Assembly (NCBI GenBank): GCA_020696345.1 | Contig: JAEHCK010000002.1 | Span: 24,647 to 88,646 of the forward strand | DNA: 64,000 nt | Source: Thermoplasmata archaeon | GTDB lineage: Archaea > Thermoplasmatota > Penumbrarchaeia > JAEHCK01 | Reading direction: 5' to 3' | Shown: positions 21,787 to 61,236 of the stretch, one piece after another | Layout: the number at the start of each line of letters is the position of its first letter | How positions within the stretch are numbered: the stretch's first letter is position 1 | Translations under genes and position numbers: made by a program | Notes under the pieces: model-generated | Seen by the model: the letters and a program-made list of their open reading frames with translations, nothing else | Databases searched by the model: none | Told to the model about the DNA's origin: nothing

Positions 21787-21920
21787 GCTCCCGTAGTGTA
21801 GACCGGTCAATCATTTTGGCCTCTCGAGGCCTTTCTTTTGCCTGGCAAAAGAAACCCCTGGGAAAGAAAACCAGGAGCCATTGATAGCCAAGGACTCGGG
21901 TTCGAATCCCGACGGGAGCA
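21787..21920 (+). tRNA. tRNA-Glu (CTC) with intron, predicted 21827-21885
   Basis: Acceptor gctcccg/cgggagc, anticodon stem ttggc/gccaa, loop CTCTCG|A split at canonical 37/38, T-arm ctcgggttcgaatcccga. Confidence 0.8.
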
Positions 21921-22500
21921 TTATCTCTTTTTTAATAAATTGATAATGCATAGTTAATGTTCTATGCGTAATTGAGATTCGAACCCTAGAAAAAAATATG
22001 AATACATTATGATTAAATCTTATTTTGTTCTGCCCTAAAAATTCCTTCAATAAGAAATTGGAAATAAATGGAATTTTTACGACTCGGTTACGAATCCCGA
22101 CGGGAGCATTATCTATCTTTTAATGAATTGATAATGCATAGTTAATGTTCTGTGCGTAATTGGGATTCGAACCCTAGAAAAAAATAAGAAGGAATTATAA
22201 TTGAATCTTATTTTTTTCTTGAGCTAAAAATTCCGATGATTTGATATTGAATAGGATTGGAATTTTTACCTCTCGGGTTTGAATCCATTTGTTGTATTAA
22301 GATATAATCTGAAAATGTATTGTCCTCACATATCATTACAATTGTTCGATCGTTTAAACAAAATAATCCTCAGAGAACGAGCAGGCTTATCCCAGAGTTT
22401 TGGGATGAGCGTAAAACTTTTTGCGAGGGGTAAGCCAGCGGAGTTAACTGCCAAAAAGTTTCCGTTCGAATCCCGACGGGAGCATTATCTCTTTTTTAAT
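21894..22500. repeat. Tandem duplications carrying the tRNA-Glu 3' end
   Basis: ~188-bp unit at 21894, 22082 and partial 22271; fourth tRNA 3' fragment gttcgaatcccgacgggagcattatctcttttttaat at 22464-22500. Confidence 0.85.
22379..22463. repeat. Dispersed pseudoknot-forming element, copy A
   Basis: GGCTTATCCC (22384-22393) pairs GGGGTAAGCC (22427-22436); AAACTTTTTG (22414-22423) pairs CAAAAAGTTT (22452-22461); interleaved. Confidence 0.75.
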
Positions 22501-22579
22501 GAATTGATAATGCTTAGTACTACTTTATTAGTTGAAAAATTTAATGAATTATGCATGGAAAATGGTGGATGGTGAATTA

Positions 22580-46254: not shown

Positions 46255-46410
46255 TTTCGTCCTACGGTTTCGAAATTCGTATCGTGATACGGCTAACGTT
46301 AAACGGCAAAGAGCCGTTAGACGAAACCGATAGACGATACGAATCTCGATACCGTGTAACGAAAGCGTCCCTACGGTGTCAGTTTCGATGTTTGTATTGT
46401 TAGTTGGTTT
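46255..46410. repeat. Inverted-repeat-rich intergenic segment (cgaaac / gatacg motifs)
   Basis: ctaacgttaaacggcaaagagccgttag hairpin with surrounding cgtatcgtgatacg / cgatacgaatctcgatacc. Confidence 0.6.
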
Positions 46411-46452
46411 CGTTTATCGGGTTGTCATTATTGATAGAGAAATACGGTGAAT

Positions 46453-46535
46453 GAGCAGGCAAACCCCGAGTTTTGGGATGACCGTAAAACTTTTTGTGAG
46501 GGGTTTGCCAGCGCAGTTCACCGCCAAAAGTTTCC
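46453..46535. repeat. Dispersed pseudoknot-forming element, copy B
   Basis: GGCAAACCCC (46458-46467) pairs GGGGTTTGCC (46500-46509); AAACTTTTTG (46487-46496) pairs CAAAAGTTT (46525-46533). Confidence 0.75.
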
Positions 46536-46878
46536 GTGCGATACCGTTTAACGATTCTAAGAATCCTTTGGCCTAATTTTATTAATACAGCAAAGCAATA
46601 CAAATTCTCGAGAGGAGCCAAAATAAGTATGAATATGGTTAGGGAAGGAAAGAATCCCTTCCCTAACAACCCAACCCACTTTTAATCTTTCCCAGTGTGA
46701 GCTGACGCTCACACAATAAATAACTTAATTTGAGAGAGACCGAGTATTTACATGGGGAGTACGAAATGATAAAATGAGGATGAAAGAAAAAGGTCAACCC
46801 GAGGGAATTATTTAAATTGAGTAGAATGAGCAAGTTCAGACCACAACACCAACCCCCAAGATACCACCAACCGATAAA

Positions 46879-60891: not shown

Positions 60892-61236
60892 AAGAGGGCC
60901 AGGGCATAGATATCTTAGGGCTATGTCTTGATAGGCCATAGAGATATCTGAGGCTCATTGGTAGTATGTCATCCTTAATGTTCTTCTCTCGAAAATTCGG
61001 ATTCTAAGATGGCCCTATCTCAATAAATTATGTCATTCGGAGATACGGGTTATATACTATTGATGACCAACATCCATTAAAACAAGGATTGAAACAATCC
61101 ACCACGATCTCGTCTCGTATCTTTTCCTCTTTATTATCACGGCTATATCTTGCTTTGTGGAGTACTTTTCCTATGCTAACATTCTCGTGCTCGCGCTCGA
61201 GTGTGATGCCATGCGAGAAAATTGAGGTTCATACAC

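Follow-up and report, generated by a model that had tools for sequence, protein, structure and literature searches.

A short dispersed pseudoknot element of Thermoplasmatota archaea, probably a mobile RNA with a triple-helix fold

The window analyzed here, a 64,000-nucleotide stretch of the contig JAEHCK010000002.1 of a Thermoplasmata archaeon, contains two copies (A and B) of a short repeat, of which copy A lies downstream of an intron-containing tRNA-Glu gene (Table 1). Each unit is built from a variable outer stem (P1), a conserved internal loop (GAGCA/AGCGCA, the 3' strand occurring in near variants), a stem P2, and an H-type pseudoknot (PK) between the P2 loop and the 3' tail. The initial annotation described two copies with two stems, and both positions and pairing are exactly as it gave them. 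Its extent of ~85 bp overlooks the outer stem P1; the real unit spans about 93–97 nt.

Table 1. Positions of the tRNA-Glu site and of the parts of copies A and B in the window.
Feature	Position	Strand	Evidence or remark
Host tRNA-Glu gene with intron, target of A	21787–21920	+	Rfam RF00005, 44.9 bits; ARAGORN with introns
Target segment X (tRNA T-loop to trailer), functional copy	21900–21954	+	Repeat search
Copy A, whole unit (from P1 5' strand up to the duplicated tRNA fragment)	22371–22463	+	R1/R2 covariance-model matches 22368–22465, 101.7 and 94.4 bits
Copy A, P1 5' strand CAGAGAAC	22371–22378	+	Partner 22443–22450, 6/8 standard pairs; segmentation and covariation
Copy A, internal-loop strand GAGCA, conserved	22379–22383	+	Identical in 60/65 copies
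Copy A, P2 5' strand GGCTTATCCC	22384–22393	+	Partner 22427–22436; covariation, segmentation
Copy A, L1 pyrimidine run TTTT (within AGAGTTTTGGG), proposed Hoogsteen strand of triple helix	22398–22401	+	
Copy A, pseudoknot 5' strand AAACTTTTTG	22414–22423	+	Partner 22452–22461; covariation
Copy A, P2 3' strand GGGGTAAGCC	22427–22436	+	
Copy A, internal-loop strand AGCGGA, conserved	22437–22442	+	
Copy A, P1 3' strand GTTAACTG	22443–22450	+	Segmentation
Copy A, pseudoknot 3' strand CAAAAAGTTT, purine strand of proposed triple helix	22452–22461	+	
X duplicate, flush with 3' end of A	22464–22518	+	96% identical
Copy B, upstream duplicate CGATACCGTGTAACGA	46347–46362	+	Score 13 vs 99% control 11
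Copy B, whole unit	46445–46536	+	R1/R2 covariance-model matches 46442–46537, 114.6 and 104 bits
Copy B, P1 CGGTGAAT / GTTCACCG	46445–46452 / 46516–46523	+	
Copy B, P2 5' strand GGCAAACCCC	46458–46467	+	Partner 46500–46509; segmentation
Copy B, pseudoknot 5' strand	46487–46496	+	Partner 46525–46533, 3' side one A short
Copy B, downstream duplicate CGATACCGTTTAACGA	46539–46554	+	Same flank comparison as upstream duplicate

The tRNA-Glu gene has an intron of roughly 60 bases and is missed by a default ARAGORN run. The 55-bp target X of copy A is present three times, the third copy lying at 22088–22142. Two tandem 188-bp units at the T-arm of this gene (21893–22286) carry a different small element (CTAAAAATTCC...GGAATTTTTAC) that likewise ends at a duplicated T-loop; the site has thus been hit by more than one type of element. 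Another dispersed mosaic repeat, rich in CGGTTTCG, TTCGAAACCG, and GTATCG, occupies 46260–46420 and the flanks of many copies elsewhere in the source genome. Its segment TTCGAAACC resembles a tRNA T-loop, and many copies that are not at tRNA genes end there. A match to a CRISPR repeat (RF01320, CRISPR-DR7) was found at 61059–61095.

The element is previously uncatalogued, being absent from Rfam. Searches of copy A and of copies from other genomes against Rfam 15, at gathering and relaxed thresholds, returned nothing over the element, in keeping with the initial annotation, which had recognized no known family. The nearest match (RAGATH-22, 18.5 bits against a threshold of 120.3) falls over the 3' flank. 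Self-cleaving ribozyme families gave no Rfam match to the element; group I and II introns, HDV, and twister were rejected on the same ground, and the strand order is unlike that of HDV. A literature search, with subscription papers mostly outside its reach, found no description of the element.

The family extends far beyond the two copies from which a structure had been proposed, with dozens of scattered copies recovered from the source genome and its relatives. Within the source assembly (G000; 4.97 Mb, 272 contigs), 46 places were found by blastn and 41 by a covariance model built from 27 copies, far more than chance would give. Among relatives, this first model matched only G001, a genome of the same class. 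A second model that included G001 was positive in five of 390 genomes of a phylum-wide sample and in 21 of 300 genomes of one class, the latter spread over seven families. With G000 and G001 included, at least 23 genomes contain the element, many of them in 5–15 copies. At least 22 of these are Thermoplasmatota genomes other than the source, from two classes and about nine families, and the distribution is very patchy. Three named records pass the model, CP070751.1 (Thermoplasmata archaeon bin33, a single chromosome of 5.16 Mb), Thermoplasmata archaeon S014_43_esom, and archaeon Dive96_bin10.379; the matches in G403, a genome from the same phylum as the window, occupy the same places, on one contig, as those in CP070751.1, and this assigns the window to Thermoplasmatota. 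A viral carrier was sought in IMG/VR, where 50 pattern hits occurred and none passed the model. A genome-wide pattern scan likewise gave mostly chance hits, and among the loci tested only Thermoplasmata or other archaeal records pass the model. Some copies are nested in one another, frequently at the junction of the P2 3' strand (P2') with AGCG, and 5'-truncated copies are present.

Covariation is present in all three helices. Both-sided changes were observed in 14 of 28 pairs among 27 aligned copies from the source genome and in 21 of 28, including five of the ten pseudoknot pairs, once the G001 copies were added; these counts are free of segmentation bias, but the structure was derived from those very copies. 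In the 27-copy alignment, 93.7% of cells pair as against 85% after shuffling, and since the copies are related, independent covariation events are fewer than cells. When partners were offset by one column, pairing in this alignment fell from 94% to 53%. Variants of P2 within the source genome include CTTACCCC/GGGGTAAG, CAAACCCC/GGGGTTTG, CTCACCCC/GGGGTGAG, CTAACCCT/AGGGTTAG, and CTGACCCT/AGGGTCAG, with more besides. Distant pseudoknots differ completely in sequence and keep their pairing, as in TTTTTTTCTTTG/CAAAGAAAAAAA (L082, L344), TCTTTCTTGG/CTAAGAAAGA (L143), and GCGAACCTTTTTCC/GGAAAAAGGCTCGC (L149). For 65 copies from nine genomes, we also swapped strands between copies of the same genome; the observed pairing was reached in none of 5000 swaps for each of P1, P2, and PK, though the pairing percentages of this set are upper values, as its automatic segmentation selects for pairing.

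These data strongly support selection on the H-type pseudoknot, as had been proposed from A and B, and leave virtually no doubt that the structure is real. It is also very likely that RNA, rather than DNA, is the folded form. Tandem G.A/A.G pairs, which are typical of RNA helices, occur in P1 of 17 copies, all but one with standard pairs on both sides (mean 11.4 with swapped strands, P = 0.001). Pseudoknot-free RNA folding of the sense strand gave z-scores of −2.35 for A and −5.65 for B.

The loop that directly follows the 5' strand of P2 (L1) is pyrimidine-rich and tracks the purine strand of the pseudoknot (PK') in parallel orientation. Examples are AAAGAAAAAAA with TTTCTTTTTTT (L082), AAAGAAAAAG with TTTCTTTTTC (L145, L147), GAAAAG with CTTTTC (L150), and AAAA with TTTT (A and B). 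Such tracking is expected if U.A-U and C+.G-C triples form in the deep groove of an H-type pseudoknot. For 40 distinct classes, the summed parallel score was 276.5, compared to a mean of 237 and a maximum of 258 with tails permuted, and permutation within genomes reached it in none of 20,000 trials. Antiparallel pairing of L1 with the tail was considered and is weaker than the parallel match (P = 0.0026). On this statistical evidence, the pseudoknot probably carries a major-groove triple helix.

The surroundings of the copies bear the marks of insertion. Flanking direct repeats of 17–144 bp exceeded the control in 40 of 95 copies tested and did not in the other 55; the 40 are made up of 27 of 74 loci that surpassed 99% of a cross-genome control, and of 13 among 21 further copies, a set in which a few loci occur twice. 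The downstream duplicate mostly begins 1–13 nt after PK', which defines a near-fixed 3' junction, while the distance from the start of the first duplicate to P1 is mostly 19–147 bp, the longest single matched stretch being about 110 bp. Of 39 copies in the source genome, 14 follow a tRNA gene on their own strand, almost always at no more than 500 bp, and several, copy A included, end exactly at a duplicated T-loop fragment. Seven of eight copies in G323 lie 1–118 bp from tRNA 3' ends in opposite orientation. Other duplications include 34 bp at tRNA-Gln (L338) and 40 bp inside an mvhD-like gene (L344) of CP070751.1, 45 bp where a surface-protein-like gene ends (L150), the final codons of a gene resembling aspartyl/asparaginyl-tRNA synthetase (L156), 32 bp at L361, and CAGAAGGTATCAAGTAA, which directly abuts P1 where an open frame ends (L372); these names of protein genes rest on reading translations rather than on a family search. 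In each case read in detail, one side of the element retains the full gene and the other holds a remnant.

An empty site was found at rpoB-rpoA'. The two genes overlap (ATGA) in G000 and G001; G403 and G398 have the element inserted between the two, flanked on either side by GGAGGAYTTAAGATGA, so that both genes keep their ends. The duplications rebuild their targets, be they tRNA T-arms, gene ends, or this overlapping junction, and because they leave these intact, insertion into essential genes is tolerated. Past mobile insertion is highly probable. Arrays in which X and element repeat in tandem (L010, L368) indicate that some duplications may be products of recombination. No clear target motif was found at the insertion sites, including 5' of the duplicated target, and the 3' junction wanders over the T-arm. 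As a separate observation, the element lies antisense at the identical nucleotide (ACCA/GTTGCA) of an mvhD-like gene in CP070751.1 (L344) and in G001 (L092/L166), which belong to different classes; this suggests independent insertions at one site.

Several candidate partners were considered. Clustering of 999 ORF stretches around the copies revealed no protein family beside most of them, and the neighbors look like ordinary genes. An apparent ORF (KDNNIWYFRGVPEEVR*) upstream of several copies raised the possibility of a gene ending in the element; it proved to be the 5' side of a nested or duplicated repeat, with no shared gene. An ordinary IS end, which the initial annotation had named as a refuting outcome, was rejected, as no gene recurs beside the copies and terminal inverted repeats are absent; a lack of further copies and of covariation beyond A and B, which it had also listed as refuting, did not occur either. 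Among eight positive genomes tested for reverse transcriptase (PF00078, RVT_1), only G000 has the domain; it is absent in G001, G321, G323, G356, CP070751.1 (G390, a single-contig chromosome), G391, and G392.

We propose that A and B are members of a family of short, non-autonomous mobile elements of Thermoplasmatota archaea, whose mobile unit would be a structured RNA comprising P1, P2, the internal loop, and a triple-helix pseudoknot that ends in the purine-rich 3' strand. DNA copies would be made from this RNA by a target-primed, SINE-like reaction. By analogy with the ENE of the Evade transposon, the L1/PK' triple helix may protect or present the RNA 3' end, which would be joined at a nick inside a gene, often in a tRNA T-loop; a second cut would fall at a variable distance downstream, and the enzyme would be supplied in trans. 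Such a reaction best fits the near-fixed 3' junction, variable 5' side, long duplications of variable length, 5'-truncated copies, and RNA-type fold. Duplications of variable length, the near-fixed 3' junction, and the lack of terminal inverted repeats argue against a DDE-type transposon. We assign this explanation as a whole a probability of about 0.6. Taken by itself, RNA-templated insertion stands at slightly less than even odds. The enzyme is the weak step of the scheme, given that RVT_1 is missing in seven of the eight genomes, and a plasmid-borne or extrachromosomal reverse transcriptase, an archaeal polymerase with reverse-transcriptase activity, or a DNA route may be involved instead. 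More tentative still is the specific proposal of a retroposon-like archaeal element whose entire body is a triple-helix pseudoknot RNA, copied into DNA where tRNA and other genes are nicked, by a polymerase other than a classical reverse transcriptase, with the target rebuilt by long duplication.

The initial annotation had left the choice between an ncRNA, a ribozyme, and a structured mobile or attachment element; of these, a structured mobile element has the best support, from copies nested in one another and from long duplications of the target. The copies at the 3' ends of tRNA and protein genes could instead be a structured RNA that serves the host, such as a terminator, 3'-end stabilizer, or processing signal, copied by duplication and recombination and retained for its function in place, with mobility incidental. 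Its pyrimidine tracts could terminate archaeal transcription on either strand, and the orthologous copy at rpoB-rpoA' is kept in two genomes of one genus with a nearly identical P2 that still pairs. We regard this as unlikely: the element is found in five of 390 and 21 of 300 genomes only, no gene class is common to its copies, and some are found in antisense orientation at the starts of genes (mvhD, etfB), within methylase genes, or within each other.

An element acting at the DNA level would, in the manner of integron attC sites or IS200/IS605 ends, present its folded single strand as substrate to a recombinase or nuclease, with the pseudoknot formed by pairing of single-stranded DNA. Integrons and IS200/IS605 do use folded substrates of this kind, integrases typically target T-loops, and the minus strand of B also folds well (z = −5.27). 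The tandem G.A pairs in P1 and the RNA-type triple helix kept by L1 and PK' speak against this, as does a 3' junction that wanders over the T-arm; attC and Y1 reactions are not known to make duplications of variable length. We therefore hold a DNA-level element to be quite improbable. The 3' tail also runs straight into sequence matching a nearby gene, as if the element were a guide-RNA scaffold resembling TnpB omegaRNA, whose 3' flank, as the guide, would direct an RNA-guided nuclease or transposase in trans; some guide-RNA scaffolds do contain pseudoknots and triplexes. Such guides, however, would lead to cleavage of tRNA genes of the host itself, the matched targets have no common motif on their 5' side that could act as a TAM, and no nuclease or transposase gene, tnpB included, recurs beside the copies, all of which makes a guide-RNA role very improbable.

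A mobile RNA of the proposed kind invites comparison with several known systems. Short dispersed folded repeats, some inside genes, are known from prokaryotic genomes as ERIC, BOX, REP, and Rickettsia palindromic elements; the present element is no simple palindrome but a pseudoknot with a putative triple helix, and it further differs in its conserved internal loop and its long duplications of the target. Like MITEs and the IS200/IS605-derived PATEs, it is short, non-autonomous, and dispersed, but it has no fixed target duplication (17 to 144 bp), no parental transposon was found, and its only inverted ends are the strands of P1, which are part of the fold. With SINEs and other target-primed retroposons (R2, LINE partners) it shares short length, non-autonomy, a link to tRNA, a near-fixed 3' junction, a variable 5' end, and target duplications of variable length; in contrast, it is archaeal and not tRNA-derived, its duplications reach about 140 bp, and most hosts tested (seven of eight) have no reverse transcriptase. 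Triple-helix pseudoknot-type folds have so far been known from telomerase RNA, nuclear-retention elements, and a few riboswitches. The telomerase RNA has an H-type pseudoknot in which a U-rich loop 1 forms U.A-U triples, as in the fold proposed here, whereas our element has no template or reverse transcriptase and is dispersed in many copies. Evade, a transposon of Arabidopsis, retrotransposes more because an ENE triple helix protects the 3' end of its RNA (PMC12501189). Our element resembles this and related elements (MALAT1, PAN) in that a pyrimidine-rich loop appears to engage a 3'-terminal purine tract of the RNA in a triple helix, as with Evade in a mobile element. Where an ENE has a U-rich internal loop and an A-rich tail, the archaeal element has the parallel L1/PK' match with an encoded tail of mixed A and G, gives no match to ENE families in Rfam, and would form U/C versus A/G triples rather than bind poly(A). 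It is also a whole element of about 95 nt, not a module, and its purine strand pairs as an H-type pseudoknot. The element is thus closest in kind to short dispersed folded repeats and SINEs, set apart by its triple-helix pseudoknot body and long, variable duplications.

These findings add a probable RNA family conserved across two Thermoplasmatota classes. They suggest that shielding of an RNA 3' end by a triple helix may have evolved not only in eukaryotic transposons but also in a mobile element of archaea. If movement proceeds via RNA, this would be a SINE-like system in prokaryotes that lack a recognizable reverse transcriptase, and the search for the polymerase becomes concrete.

Individual copies show further peculiarities. 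A longer form (L016 2994–2754, L020, L041, L042; also at contig ends C13 and C226) carries an insert of ~75–155 nt (GGTGAACCGTAGGTTCGCCC...GGCTGATGCG) in the pseudoknot loop, which may be a further RNA domain or the remnants of a larger parent element. Two paralogous DNA-methylase-like genes of CP070751.1 (L350, L351) are interrupted by the element at the same codon without a long duplication, and one copy of this pair has an extra 100-nt insert at the P2'/AGCG junction. Multiple CGACAAATGTT repeats resembling IS ends flank two G001 copies (L046, L048). At L082 (6413–6508), a dCMP-deaminase-like gene has the element in antisense orientation within its start, with apparent in-frame read-through, as in Rickettsia palindromic elements.
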